From Gammaproteobacteria bacterium (GTDB lineage Bacteria; Pseudomonadota; Gammaproteobacteria; Eutrophobiales; Eutrophobiaceae), in contig JACORW010000050.1 of NCBI GenBank assembly GCA_016179185.1, positions 1 to 41,124 of the forward strand: a DNA stretch of 41,124 bases, given 5' to 3'. Positions 4,425 to 40,946 of the stretch are shown here, piece after piece; the stretch's first letter is position 1; the number at the start of each line of letters is the position of its first letter. The notes beneath the pieces were generated by a model. That model ran no database searches, was not told the origin of the DNA, and worked only from the letters and a program-made list of their open reading frames with translations. A program made the position numbers and the translations under genes.

Positions 4425-5555
4425 TCAAAGCATCGGCGCCAACGGGTACAACTGATACTCTCCCGGACCCGTGATCACTCGCACATTGAGCGGGAAGTGC
4501 CGCAGCAATTCCCGGTCGTCCAGATCATTGCGCAACGGCCGGCCGCGCAGCGCCTGCATCTTGGCCGGTATTGAAATAACGGAGACATTTTCAACGCCCA
4601 CCGCCCGGATCACGCCCGCGCTCAGCGGCTGATTGCCGCGGCCGAACAGAAAACCCTGGCCGCCCACCGGTGAAATGACAATCCGGGCACGGTGACGCTG
4701 GTCGAGTATGCGCAGCAGTTGCGGCTCATTGGCATCCAGGGCCACCAGTTTCCCCCGCTGTACGACGTCAACACCAAGCAGACTTCCCGTCAGGCCGACG
4801 CGCCCCAATATCGCCATCTTGGTGCTGCCGGGCCCGAACAATAGGCACGCATCTGACTCCAGCAATTCGACTGCCGCCTCGACAACCCGCTGCAATTGTG
4901 CCGCGTCAGGCGGCGATGAAACTTTCGGTCCGGGAATGAAGTCGCGATCATAGGGAACGCGTAACCGGCCATAGGCGATAGGCGCGATGTGCGTCGCACC
5001 CGGCGCAAGTCCGCCGCGCCCCAATACCTCCTGTTCCCTGACGGTCGGGCATTCGCCGCGCAGAAAGGCCAGCGCCAGCGTGCCGGCCGCCTCCGGAGAT
5101 GCCGCAAAAACGCCGGACTGCATGTTTGCGCCGCAGGGAATGCCGATCACCGGGATGCGATCCCGGATGCTCGCCAGAATGTCCCGCGCGGTGCCGTCTC
5201 CGCCGGCGAACAACAGCAACTCCACGCCGCGCCCGAGCATCTGCGCGGCACAGCGCCGTGTGGATCCGGCGCTCGACTCTCCAGTGCCGGCCCGGTCGCA
5301 CAACTGCAAGTCCCCGAACATCCCCGTCAGGACATTCTCGCCCAGCAATCCGGCGCCGGAATAAAAGCGCAACCGGCGCGCCATCGGCAACAGACATTGC
5401 AGCGCGCGCCGGCTCCGGTCCACGGCAGTGGCTTCGATGCCGAGCGCCCGGGCGGCCGAGAACTGCTCCGGGGTGTCCGTGCCCTTGACGCCCGCTCGGC
5501 CGCCGAGGCCCGCTATGGGATTGACGATGAGCCCGATTTCGCGTCCTGCCGGCAT
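4425..5555 (-). CDS. ATP-NAD kinase-fold protein (AcoX/COG3199-like)
   Basis: 376 residues. It opens with IGLIVNPIAGLGGRAGVKG and carries LLLFAGGDGTARDI, the GGDGT loop that binds the nucleotide in the NAD-kinase/diacylglycerol-kinase superfamily. Length and C-terminal part (ISPVGGQGFLFGRGNQPLS) fit the AcoX branch, found next to acetoin or branched-chain 2-oxoacid dehydrogenase genes in other bacteria. Its biochemical role there is not well defined. The bkd operon in this window is 33 kb away, so no operon link can be claimed. ATG start at 5555 without a strong ribosome site. Convergent with the monooxygenase gene. Confidence 0.82.
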   Translation of the reverse strand: MPAGREIGLIVNPIAGLGGRAGVKGTDTPEQFSAARALGIEATAVDRSRRALQCLLPMARRLRFYSGAGLLGENVLTGMFGDLQLCDRAGTGESSAGSTRRCAAQMLGRGVELLLFAGGDGTARDILASIRDRIPVIGIPCGANMQSGVFAASPEAAGTLALAFLRGECPTVREQEVLGRGGLAPGATHIAPIAYGRLRVPYDRDFIPGPKVSSPPDAAQLQRVVEAAVELLESDACLLFGPGSTKMAILGRVGLTGSLLGVDVVQRGKLVALDANEPQLLRILDQRHRARIVISPVGGQGFLFGRGNQPLSAGVIRAVGVENVSVISIPAKMQALRGRPLRNDLDDRELLRHFPLNVRVITGPGEYQLYPLAPML

Positions 5556-5586
5556 GCAAATCCGGGGCTACATCACGCGCGGGGAA

Positions 5587-5684
5587 GTGAAAGGTAAAAA
5601 GTTGAAAGTGCAAAGTAAGACAAGACTTCCCCGCACCGCAGCGGGACTGTTTTTACTTTCCACTTTTTACTTTCCACTTTTTAC
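5587..5684. repeat. two facing heptad tandem arrays
   Basis: Left array at 5587-5614: four 7-bp units, GTGAAAG, GTAAAAA, GTTGAAA, GTGCAAA, then a partial. Right array at 5650-5684: a 14-mer TTTTTACTTTCCAC repeated twice exactly and followed by TTTTTAC. The right array is the reverse complement of the left-array pattern, so the two can pair across a 30-bp GC-rich spacer. The arrays lie between the divergent genes at 5555 (leftward) and 5820 (rightward). Related arrays occur at 31974 and, with another heptad, at 39896. Confidence 0.8.
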
Positions 5685-5733
5685 TTGATTGGCAGTTTTG
5701 CGCCGCATTGATGCTTCCCTGCGACGAACCGAG

Positions 5734-5761
5734 CTCACAACGCGGATCCGATTCCTATAAT
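5734..5761 (+). promoter_or_regulatory. sigma-70-like promoter for the small secreted protein
   Basis: A perfect TATAAT at 5756-5761 with CTCACA (four of six matches to TTGACA) 16 bp upstream at 5734-5739. Predicted start near 5768 gives a leader of about 50 bases before the ATG at 5820. Inferred by consensus only. Confidence 0.5.
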
Positions 5762-5819: not shown

Positions 5820-6098
5820 ATGAAGACTTTCATCGTATCCGTTATCAGCGCCGCGATTGTCACCCTGTCCGGCGTCGCACAGGCGCGCATCCACAATGAG
5901 CCCGGGCATTTTACCCGGGAGTATGCCCGCGAGGCGCAGCAGGCCATGAGCCGATGGGTCGAACTCGAACTGCGCAATTTCCTCAAAGCCGGCGCGCCCG
6001 CGCTCCGCATTGAGGAAACCGGCAAGTTTGGTCTTGACCACCCCTCGCTCCACGCTGAGACCCAGGCGTCGAATTCCGGCCCCGCGTCATCGAAATAG
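5820..6098 (+). CDS. small secreted protein
   Basis: 92 residues beginning MKTFIVSVISAAIVTLSGVA, a clear Sec signal peptide with a likely cut after VAQA (about residue 22). The mature part is about 70 residues, hydrophilic, with no cysteine (FTREYAREAQQAMSRWVELE, then a tail ending NSGPASSK). Ribosome site GGAGA precedes the ATG; an earlier in-frame ATG at 5760 overlaps the -10 box and is rejected. No family recognised. It ends 28 bp before a strong terminator, so it is probably a single-gene transcript. Confidence 0.72.
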   Translation: MKTFIVSVISAAIVTLSGVAQARIHNEPGHFTREYAREAQQAMSRWVELELRNFLKAGAPALRIEETGKFGLDHPSLHAETQASNSGPASSK

Positions 6099-12516: not shown

Positions 12517-12587
12517 CTCCGCCGCCGTCGCCGGAATGACCACCTCGTCATCCCCGCGCACGAATTTCGTCCCCGCGCACGGATGTC

Positions 12588-12646
12588 GTCCCCGCCCAAG
12601 CGGGGACCCGGATCGATCCCGCCTCGATTCCCGCTGGCGCGGGAAT
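12588..12646. repeat. tandem palindromes, incl. dRS3-like ATTCCC-N8-GGGAAT
   Basis: GTCCCCGC-CCAA-GCGGGGAC (12588-12607) and ATTCCC-N8-GGGAAT (12627-12646), preceded by two partial arms (CATCCCCGCGCAC at 12549, CGTCCCCGCGCAC at 12569). The second matches the pattern of the Neisseria dRS3 repeat, a motif also widespread in other proteobacteria as CATTCCCGC...GCGGGAAT. They fill the 174-bp gap between the adaptor and peptidase genes and could stop transcription. No gene seen in the gap. Confidence 0.65.
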
Positions 12647-31950: not shown

Positions 31951-31973
31951 GCCTGAAAGTCAGTGCTTTACGC

Positions 31974-31998
31974 TTTTCACTTTTTACTTTTTACTTTT
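31974..31998. repeat. heptad tandem array
   Basis: TTTTCAC, TTTTTAC, TTTTTAC, TTTT: three and a half 7-bp units, the same heptad as the right array at 5650-5684. It fills the short gap between the SelW-like gene end and the DUF2459 gene start. Confidence 0.7.
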
Positions 31999-38601: not shown

Positions 38602-39822
38602 ATGGCGACCAAGCTCCACATTCCCCACGCGCCGTTCCGGCCCGGAGACAAACCGGATTTCAGCAACATCAAGCTACCGAAGGCCGGAGAACTGCGCCGC
38701 CCGCCGACACGCATCCATGCCAACGAGACCCGGGATCTTTCATTCAGCATGATTCGGGTGCTGGATGGGGATCATCGCGCCGTGGGCGAGTGGGATCCGC
38801 ATCTGGACGCGGAGACTTTGCGGCAGGGATTGCGGCACATGCTGCTGAACCGCGTGTTCGACGACCGCATGTACAAGATGCAGCGCCAGGGCAAGATCTC
38901 CTTTTACATGCGCGCCACCGGCGAAGAGGCCGTGGCGGTGGCGCAGTGCATGGCGCTGCGCCCCGGCGACATGCTGTTTCCCTCCTACCGCCAGCAGGGC
39001 CTGTTGATCGTCCGCGGCATCCGGCTGGTAGACATGATGTGCCAGTGCCTGTCCAATTCCCGCGACAACCTCCAGGGCCGGCAGCTGCCGGTGTTGTACA
39101 GTTTCAAGGACGTGAACTTCTTCACGCTATCCGGCAATCTCGGGACGCAGTTTCCGCAGGCGGTGGGCTGGGCGATGGCCGCGGAATACAAGGGCACCAG
39201 CGATGTGGCTGTGAGCTGGATCGGCGAGGGCAGCAGCGCCGAGGCCGATTTTCACTACGGCCTGACGTTTGCCTCCGTGTATCGCGCGCCGGTGGTGCTG
39301 AACGTGGTCAACAACCAGTGGGCCATTTCCACCTACCAGAACGTGGCCGGCGGCGATCAGAATCCCTTCGCCGCCCGCGCCATCGGCTACGGCATCCCAG
39401 GGCTGCGCGTGGACGGCAATGATTTTCTCGCCGTCTTCGCCGCAACCTCCTGGGCCGCAGAGCGGGCACGGCAGGGCGCGGGGCCGACGCTCATCGAGTT
39501 ATACACCTATCGCGCCGCGCCGCACTCCACCAGCGACGACCCGGGCCGTTACCGGCCGCTGGACGAGTGGCAGTACTGGCCGCTGGGCGATCCCATCGAT
39601 CGGTTGAAGAAACATATGATTGCGCGCGGCGAGTGGTCAGAGGAACAGCACGCGGAGCTGGAGAAAGAACTCACCGATCACGTGCTGGCGTCGTGGAAGG
39701 AGGCGGAGTCATACGGAACATTGAATGAAGGTCCATGGCCTCCCGTGTCAGCCATGTTCGAGGATGTTTACAAGGACGTTCCACCACATCTTATAAAGCA
39801 AAAACGGGAGTTGCTGGAATGA
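38602..39822 (+). CDS. bkdA1: branched-chain 2-oxoacid dehydrogenase E1 alpha
   Basis: 406 residues, full length. TPP-binding motif: WIGEGSSAEADFHYGLTFAS, then VVLNVVNNQWAIS (G-D/E-G ... NN). Active-site phosphorylation-type loop YRAAPHSTSDDPGRYRP, as in BCKDH rather than PDH. N-terminal stretch MLLNRVFDDRMYKMQRQGKI is typical of BkdA1. It decarboxylates keto acids from valine, leucine and isoleucine and passes the acyl group to lipoyl E2. ATG 38602 with GGGAGAC upstream. First gene of the operon. Confidence 0.95.
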   Translation: MATKLHIPHAPFRPGDKPDFSNIKLPKAGELRRPPTRIHANETRDLSFSMIRVLDGDHRAVGEWDPHLDAETLRQGLRHMLLNRVFDDRMYKMQRQGKISFYMRATGEEAVAVAQCMALRPGDMLFPSYRQQGLLIVRGIRLVDMMCQCLSNSRDNLQGRQLPVLYSFKDVNFFTLSGNLGTQFPQAVGWAMAAEYKGTSDVAVSWIGEGSSAEADFHYGLTFASVYRAPVVLNVVNNQWAISTYQNVAGGDQNPFAARAIGYGIPGLRVDGNDFLAVFAATSWAAERARQGAGPTLIELYTYRAAPHSTSDDPGRYRPLDEWQYWPLGDPIDRLKKHMIARGEWSEEQHAELEKELTDHVLASWKEAESYGTLNEGPWPPVSAMFEDVYKDVPPHLIKQKRELLE

Positions 39823-39895
39823 AGGGAGAGTCACAAGTAAATAGGGAAGGTGTTCGCCTGCGAGATACGCTTCACGAACGACGAGATACGTCTTG

Positions 39896-39930
39896 CCAGC
39901 CACTAGCCACCAGCCACTAGCCACCAGCCA
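39896..39930. repeat. 14-mer tandem array CCACTAGCCACCAG
   Basis: CCAG, then CCACTAG CCACCAG twice (39900-39927), then CCA, ending two bases before the E1 beta ATG. A separate pair, GCGAGATACG (39860) and GACGAGATACG (39880), lies in the same 110-bp gap. The array occupies the place where a ribosome site would be expected; none is visible. Confidence 0.75.
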
Positions 39931-39932
39931 AT

Positions 39933-40946
39933 ATGCCTGCAATGAACATGGTCCAAGCCCTGAACTCCGCGATGGATGTGATGCTGGAGCGGGATCCGAA
40001 CGTGGTCGTGTTCGGCGAGGACGTGGGCTATTTCGGCGGCGTGTTCCGCTGCACCGAAGGGTTGCAGAAAAAGTACGGCGAGCACCGCGTGTTCGACACA
40101 CCCATCGCCGAAGGCGGCATCGTCGCCACGGCCATCGGCATGGGCGCCAATGGTTTGCGGCCGGTGGTGGAGATCCAGTTCGCCGACTACATCTATCCGG
40201 CCTTCGATCAGATCGTCAGCGAGCTGGCGCGGCTGCGCTATCGCAGCGGCGGACAGTACTGGTCGCCGATCACCATCCGTTCGCCCTGCGGCGGCGGCAT
40301 CCGCGGCGGGCAGACCCATTCCCAGAGTCCGGAGGCCATCTTCGCCCACGTGTGCGGCCTGAAGACCGTCATGCCGTCCACGCCATTCGACGCCAAGGGG
40401 CTGCTCATCGCCGCCATCGAGGCCGACGATCCGATCATCTTCCTCGAACCGAAGCGGTTGTATAACGGCCCGTTCGAGGGCGATCCGAAGCAGCCCGCGG
40501 TCGGCTGGAATACCCACCCCGCCGGCGAAGTGCCGGACGGCCACTACACGATCCCCATCGGCAAGGCGAACACGGTGCGTACCGGATCGGATCTCACCAT
40601 CCTCGCCTACGGCACCATGGTGCACGTGGCGGGCGCCGCCGCGCAGCAGACCGGCGTCAACGCCGAGATCATAGACATCCGCACCATCGCGCCGCTGGAT
40701 GTGGACACCATAGCCGCATCCGTGTGCCGCACCGGGCGCTGCGTAATCGTGCACGAGGCCACGCGCTTCGGCGGCTACGGCGGCGAGTTGTCCGCCATCG
40801 TGCAGGAGGAATGTTTCTGGAATCTCGAGGCGCCGATCCTGCGTGTGTGCGGCTGGGACACACCCTACCCCCATGCGCAGGAATGGGATTATTTTCCCGG
40901 TCCGCAGCGGGTGGCGAAGGCGATTCGCCAGGTGATGGGTTGTTGA
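39933..40946 (+). CDS. bkdA2: branched-chain 2-oxoacid dehydrogenase E1 beta
   Basis: 337 residues, full length. Markers: NMVQALNSAMDVMLERDPNV, VVFGEDVGYFGGVFRCTEGL, FDTPIAEGGIVATAIGMGAN, and the C-terminal transketolase part (EIIDIRTIAPLDVDTIAASV and VIVHEATRFGGYGGE). Pairs with E1 alpha as an alpha2-beta2 enzyme. ATG 39933 or 39942; neither has a ribosome site because a tandem repeat lies directly upstream. 110 bp after E1 alpha. Confidence 0.95.
   Translation: MPAMNMVQALNSAMDVMLERDPNVVVFGEDVGYFGGVFRCTEGLQKKYGEHRVFDTPIAEGGIVATAIGMGANGLRPVVEIQFADYIYPAFDQIVSELARLRYRSGGQYWSPITIRSPCGGGIRGGQTHSQSPEAIFAHVCGLKTVMPSTPFDAKGLLIAAIEADDPIIFLEPKRLYNGPFEGDPKQPAVGWNTHPAGEVPDGHYTIPIGKANTVRTGSDLTILAYGTMVHVAGAAAQQTGVNAEIIDIRTIAPLDVDTIAASVCRTGRCVIVHEATRFGGYGGELSAIVQEECFWNLEAPILRVCGWDTPYPHAQEWDYFPGPQRVAKAIRQVMGC

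Follow-up and report, generated by a model that had tools for sequence, protein, structure and literature searches.

Why should two stacks of a short heptad face each other in the gap between a NAD-kinase-like gene and a small open reading frame, and what has kept them in that form? The question is raised by one intergenic region of the window, the whole stretch of 41,124 nucleotides that was analysed, which is contig C19 of a gammaproteobacterial assembly of 115 contigs and 2.58 Mb (G000, the window genome). Two facing period-7 arrays had been noticed here in a preliminary description made from the letters of the window, and both are present, far above chance (Table 1). The longest run in the window comprises five tandem units, against 0 in 50 first-order Markov shuffles of the window. 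The spacing of 38 bp is measured between the outermost good units and becomes 33 bp if the TTTTTAC at 5650 is counted. The recurrence of the heptad further along the window has also been borne out by a second AAAGTNN array, and a third array of another heptad class is located just upstream of an ORF at 39933-40946, after an ORF ending at 39822. An intergenic 19-bp tandem repeat, GTCGTCCCCGCGCACGAAT (2.6 copies, 12547-12595), is unrelated to the heptads. The flanking genes had been called divergent, which is plausible rather than demonstrated: the plus-strand ORF has a signal-peptide-like start and is preceded by a promoter-like site at 5734-5761, and a Pfam search with this ORF matched no family.

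Table 1. Heptad arrays of the window and the genes beside the facing pair.
Feature	Position	Strand	Description
Whole element, window copy	5584-5687		(AAAGTNN)5 – 38 bp – (NNACTTT)5, arms facing
Left heptad arm	5584-5616	+	5 units, inward-reading: (G)AAGTGA-AAGGTAA-AAAGTTG-AAAGTGC-AAAGT
Core between arms	5617-5654	none	GC hairpin and T tail at 5630-5645, terminator-like on +
Right heptad arm	5655-5687	-	5 units, facing the left arm: ACTTT CCACTTT TTACTTT CCACTTT TTACTTG, complement of the left-arm motif
NAD-kinase-like gene, flanking	4425-5555	-	PF01513/PF20143
Small ORF, flanking	5820-6098 (alternative start 5760)	+	signal-peptide-like N terminus
Second AAAGTNN array	31965-31997	-	one arm only, its partner decayed or missing; a minus-strand gene on either side
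Third array, CCAGCCA/CTAGCCA (inward CTRGTGG)	39894-39936	-	other heptad class; period also 7

The heptad is not a local curiosity. The exact three-unit pattern AAAGTNNAAAGTNNAAAGT has 82 matches in G000 and 1 for the reversed control, and with two mismatches allowed the counts are 263 and 87. Scanning the window together with a 34-kb contig of G000 for periodicity yielded 11 arrays of period 7; the other periods tested, multiples excluded, yielded 0-2, and shuffled sequence 0. Chance A/T runs occurring nowhere else, which the preliminary description had named as the outcome that would undo its reading, are excluded by the shuffles, the reversed control and the period scan; the heptad is genome-wide and nearly always comes in facing pairs. 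Counts were taken from searches and from fetched stretches. The fetched G000 places are 44 entries, which amount to about 43 loci because two of them (L040 and L061) are one locus on two overlapping contig ends. Both arms are present under strict criteria in 31 of these entries, and in the non-redundant set of 123 kb all 31 of the 31 neighbouring arm pairs are facing. An element is non-coding and measures ~75-145 bp, typically 90-120 bp, with arms of 4-6 degenerate heptads on either side of a short core whose sequence is unconstrained. The core lengths centre on 46-49 bp (range 12 to 93), and no clear phase rule emerged when helical phasing of the spacer was sought in them.

Besides AAAGTNN, the heptad classes ACAAGYN and CTRGTGG occur in G000. 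ACAAGYN shows the same layout, with 246 matches against 1 in the control, and the places listed for it are also facing (e.g., C1:23930+/23982- and C33:6292+/6341-). Two contig ends of G000 (C6:10-140 and C7:1-63) consist of pure (TAGCCAC)n arrays; long heptad arrays are probably where the assembly is interrupted.

The elements keep to the gaps between genes. Coding overlap averages 10% of element length in a genome whose window is ~91% coding. The gaps that hold elements are tandem in 24 cases, convergent in 8 and divergent in 6, and in the 24 tandem cases the elements lie a median of 9.5 bp from the upstream stop and 33.5 bp from the downstream start, distances that are approximate for any single gene since the gene calls come from a home-made codon scorer. 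Several stop codons are located within the first heptads. G000 contains dozens of copies, always facing, nearly always intergenic and often touching a stop codon. The terminator scan covered the core of the window copy, where a terminator-like hairpin is present; terminators have been rejected as the identity of the elements, which occupy gaps of all three gene orientations as well as mid-operon ribosomal junctions.

The conservation within the units bears on how the arrays arose. Positions 1-5 of the unit (AAAGT) carry 1.46-1.83 bits each, while positions 6 and 7 (NN) carry 0.46 and 0.42. Adjacent units have an identical NN in 13 cases where 29.4 are expected (p<0.0002; 0 of 5000 permutations as low). 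Replication slippage, which the preliminary description had offered as one origin, would make the elements heptad microsatellites produced by a slipping polymerase and inverted by chance, and a 7-nt polymerase footprint has been cited as a reason for heptad slippage (PMC4679880, PMC4692102). The preference for period 7, the long pure arrays such as those at the C6 and C7 ends of G000 and (AAGTTAC)n in the relative G012, and a change of unit number by whole heptads in a Bacteroidia family described below are consistent with it. Yet neighbouring units differ more than chance allows, the opposite of what fresh slippage leaves, the pairs face each other strictly, the number of units is fixed at 4-6, and AAAGT is conserved while NN drifts. 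The facing rule, together with the behaviour of NN, largely refutes slippage as the sole cause, and we regard it as very improbable; whole-unit length change is the part of the idea that stands.

A long cruciform had also been suggested, and the strand of the window copy can indeed fold as a long hairpin (RNA -40 kcal/mol, z -6.6; DNA -19.4, z -4.1). The NN positions of partner arms do not covary in any register (permutation p 0.44-0.97), so that pairing of the arms is not the preserved trait at the free positions. A hairpin as the selected feature has been rejected on this ground, and because the more variable arm columns in the Clostridia family described below show mostly one-sided changes. 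The pattern suggests that a 5-bp word is recognised repeatedly, once every 7 bp, rather than that a stem is under selection. An Rfam scan of the window returned no family at the gathering cut-off; a weak match to mir-577 (E 0.035, far below gathering) is a by-product of the palindrome.

The search of relatives that had been proposed finds the heptad in patches. Among 58 relatives, the exact AAAGT pattern is found 82 times in G016, 53 in G002, 36 in G001, 10 in G032 and 8 in G013, next to the 82 of G000, and 0 times in most genomes of the same family. G001 is a congener of G000 and G002 belongs to another genus of the family; a tree of 12 ribosomal proteins places G002 as sister to G000 and G001 with support 1.0. 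A generic heptad, WAGYNRH in four units, matches G000 at 210 places, G001 at 77 and G016 at 32, against controls of 0-1, but this formula should not be pressed because the control is about equal to or above the count in G009, G012, G013 and G044. The arrays of G012 (C101:931-993, C101:9778-9840 and C109:406-447) are long, near-perfect (AAGTCAT)n and (AAGTTAC)n runs, unlike the heterogeneous arrays of G000.

At orthologous junctions, both filled and empty sites are seen. The rpsJ-rplC gap is filled in G000, G001 and G002 (128, 128 and 129 bp) and measures 15-75 bp in 14 other relatives, while the rplN-rplX gap is filled in G000 (121 bp) and G002 (123 bp) and only 3 bp long in G001. Elements of G000 are clearly missing from the G001 junction at L044 (164 bp in G000 vs 71 bp in G001), L003 (141 vs 5), L041 (138 vs 1), L047 (174 vs 86), L060 (223 vs 149), L049 (225 vs 109) and L002 (106 vs 36); L045 and L054 are less clean cases of the same kind. 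The class may differ where a site is filled in two genomes: the element at tuf-rpsJ is of the AAAGTNN class in G016 but ACAAGNN in G000. At rplX-rplE, both G000 and G001 have the ACAAGNN class. At a tRNA-Val gene, G000 has AAAGTNN downstream (L061 1-280) and G001 has heptads on both sides, AAAGTNN and ATAAGYN (L231 1480-1790); the AAAGTNN element of G000 occupies the place of the ATAAGYN heptads of G001, a class switch at one site.

Where an element is shared, the motif outlasts its surroundings. In four G000/G001 orthologous elements, one with a decayed arm, the motif is identical at 132 of 144 positions (92%), a figure somewhat favoured because labelling demands near-intact units, compared to 25 of 44 NN positions (57%) and 183 of 299 positions of core and flank (61%). 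In the three pairs without decay, AAAGT is kept even in arms that played no part in finding either copy, and at tmk-mltG the cores can still be aligned between the two species; these are therefore old shared copies in which AAAGT has been kept. Orthologous cores have drifted to about 52-68% identity. Between genera, the rplN-rplX element is identical at 37 of 39 motif positions.

Such persistence is what would be expected if the arrays were in the first place host sites for a putative conserved DNA- or RNA-binding protein with a nucleoid, operon-boundary or mRNA role, with selection acting on the sites and mobility being incidental. The retention of AAAGT across the genus and between genera, the nearly constant length of the rpsJ-rplC element in three species, and the presence of elements in ribosomal operons and near stop codons point in this direction. 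The high turnover of presence and absence within the genus, the complete lack of the motif in most family members and the use of every gene orientation without a common function argue against it, and we consider it distinctly unlikely as the primary explanation. The conservation of AAAGT after insertion at fixed sites exceeds the needs of a purely selfish element, a point against the mobile reading.

The origin of new copies in G000 is less easily read. A comparison of G000 cores with each other found no two alike, and for 18 cores searched against G000, G001, G002 and G016, nothing beyond the core itself scored below E=0.1, so that cores borrowed from elsewhere in the genome have been rejected. 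The core of the window copy occurs once in G000 and has no match in three relatives (E<0.1). NN triplets are shared between G000 elements no more than by chance. Without shared cores or NN order, recent copy-and-paste is not visible in G000, and the copies must be either old or made without copying a donor. The diversity of cores and NN triplets in G000 counts against a mobile reading.

The second of these possibilities can be stated as de novo growth, in which each array would form separately, e.g., if a putative templated enzyme added heptads to both 3' ends where the DNA is broken or a fork has stalled, the two arms being joined with filler as the core and nothing being copied from another element. 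Unique cores absent from G001, G002 and G016 would follow from it, as would an NN order not common to different elements, the single heptad class of each element, the inward 3' direction of both arms, and different classes at the same orthologous site (tRNA-Val, tuf-rpsJ). We regard it as unlikely, because AAAGT remains conserved once created and because dispersed copies with homologous cores in two other genomes reveal that copying as a unit does occur.

Facing heptad arrays, sought in GTDB genomes as three units opposite two with a gap of 32-62, were recovered in at least 117 stretches, and cultured carriers are among them (e.g., a Flavobacterium and an Alloalcanivorax). Among the matches listed are Bacteroidota, Patescibacteria, Acidobacteriota, Chloroflexota, Planctomycetota, Cyanobacteria, Clostridia, Alcanivorax and others, mostly with arms of 4-5 units around cores of 5-60 bp, GC-rich genomes included; some AT-rich matches may be due to chance. 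In a Clostridia MAG (RGIG3310, G058), a query with one element returned ~40 dispersed places, nearly all spanning positions 10-122 of the query. Twenty-eight distinct full copies align from AAAGTGG to CACTTT, identity is random immediately outside, and the arms are nearly invariant while the core varies. Among the 24 copies for which both flanks are present, target-site duplications of whatever length do not exceed chance, the flanks hold no conserved target tetranucleotide, and no long version of the element is present among the matches of the query.

The second family, in a Bacteroidia MAG (SKW94, G059), comprises ~30 copies that share additional inverted flanks as well as a core (pairwise identity 0.88). 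Its NN positions are highly variable, and its right array extends 14, 21, 28 or 49 bp up to a fixed anchor. About 12 of its copies (L306-L319) extend rightward into another common repeat (CTTCCTTATAGGTGTCGCCCTTTCAGGGCTTGAAATGG) as composite elements. Similar copies are present in a Kuenenbacteria MAG at 82-85%, and in Bacteroides sp. 51 (L117 94-254) heptad arms are nested with palindromic GCCATGCGGCAT segments. Comparison of the copies thus reveals movement of the structure as a unit in some genomes, with arrays that change by whole heptads, and mobile-element behaviour in at least two of them, G058 and G059. The mobile character proposed in the preliminary description has thus gained support from dispersed homologous copies that end at the arm ends in the one, a dispersed family in the other, and filled and empty sites within the genus of G000.

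Mobility of this kind is known from REP/BIME elements, which are moved by Y1 (RAYT) transposases. The elements described here are likewise small, palindromic and intergenic and lack target-site duplications, and an ORF in which a Y1-transposase-like HYH motif (SNHYHLVV) was recognised by eye (L065 379-1254) is located at a distance of 272 bp from one G000 array, a single AAAGTNN arm. However, this ORF has no Pfam match, the two genomes with the clearest families, G058 and G059, lack PF01797 (Y1_Tnp, RAYT), the presence of this domain does not track element counts in the family of G000, and the G058 flanks offer no tetranucleotide target. Movement by RAYT transposases is therefore disfavoured, with a probability that we would call slight.

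In form, the elements have closer company. Xanthomonas genomes contain ~185 heptad arrays and 70-75 convergent pairs each, built on GGGAATC or GGGANTN; the heptads are heterogeneous with two free positions, mostly in four units, and the arrays are intergenic near the end of the 5' neighbour gene (PMC4692102). A G-rich heptad of Nostoc is GGGGA(T/C)T (PMC4692102). The short heterogeneous arrays and the heptad with free positions (here five fixed and two free) are shared with both; convergent pairs are a large minority in Xanthomonas and the rule here. The Xanthomonas and Nostoc units can form G-quadruplexes, whereas AAAGTNN and ACAAGYN hold no G run, so that quadruplex formation cannot explain the shared architecture. 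The P6b stem of the trnL intron of Nostoc and Calothrix is made of degenerate heptads of class I (TDNGATT) or class II (NNTGAGT) (PMC4476775, PMC3488679). It resembles the present elements in its facing heptads around a loop, its free NN (NNTGAGT is close to NNAAAGT), its unit-wise length change and its replacement of a whole class at one site (here AAAGTNN vs ACAAGNN or ATAAGYN). It differs in being a single group I intron locus where stem pairing is treated as the constraint, while the elements here are scattered and intergenic with no covariation of NN. The cyanobacterial heptads to which the window arrays had been likened are a fair parallel, and the closest forms are the P6b stems of Nostoc (PMC4476775) and the GGGAATC arrays that occur as convergent pairs in Xanthomonas (PMC4692102), a kind that the elements described here extend.

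TAACTGA direct repeats occur in Beggiatoaceae, cyanobacteria and Bacteroidetes in 2-6 heptad copies, and a binding protein has been proposed for them (PMC4679880). They share the scattered phylogenetic spread and the intergenic position, ribosomal protein operons included, but they have an exact unit, almost no inverted partners and a position mostly just upstream of start codons. The elements here have another unit, form facing pairs and lie closer to the upstream stop (9.5 vs 33.5 bp), and do not belong with them. MITEs, REPs and BIMEs are also small, non-coding, intergenic inverted repeats, with dispersed homologous copies as in G058 and G059 and none seen in G000; the absence of target-site duplications and of a related transposase among what was found, the degenerate-heptad arms and the lack of a common core among G000 copies set the present elements apart. 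They may work like a MITE or a REP, and are filed as neither since the target-site duplication and RAYT tests fail.

The explanation towards which we lean, with modest confidence, is that the window copy belongs to a widespread class of small palindromes that are mobile but non-autonomous, have heptad arms as putative recognition sites and are retained at gene ends. The elements would spread as non-autonomous units through a putative enzyme that leaves no target-site duplication. Each heptad would be one recognition unit for a putative repeat-binding protein that reads 5 bp and leaves 2 bp free, for which reason AAAGT would be kept and NN would vary. The Omega-repressor of plasmid pSM19035 is a ribbon-helix-helix protein that occupies unspaced 7-bp repeats, WATCACW, and by analogy its heptad arrays may serve as a lead for the mode of action only. 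Over time, the number of units would shift by whole heptads and units would be exchanged or replaced. Copies would survive at gene ends, where they may be tolerated because the arrays carry stop codons, and once bound they may serve the host. Several heptad classes in one architecture need either several putative binding proteins or one permissive protein.

A broader formulation, possible but rather unlikely in our estimate, is that of mobile or self-propagating DNA that crosses phyla and is defined by a rule, facing degenerate heptads of about [A/T]AGYNNN. The 7-bp step would come from a putative enzyme or repeat-binding protein that reads about five of seven bases, makes or lengthens arrays one heptad at a time and can change the class present at a site.

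Since about 2007, heptanucleotide repeats of bacteria have been described as over-represented and unexplained, and they have been read lineage by lineage as G-quadruplexes, intron stems or products of slippage. The present elements represent one architecture without G runs that is found in many phyla, is gained and lost in ribosomal operons and forms multi-copy families in two genomes. The finding links these scattered reports and argues against G-quadruplexes and pure slippage as a general cause. The question of why the unit has seven bases becomes a testable question on one putative DNA-binding or DNA-moving protein.
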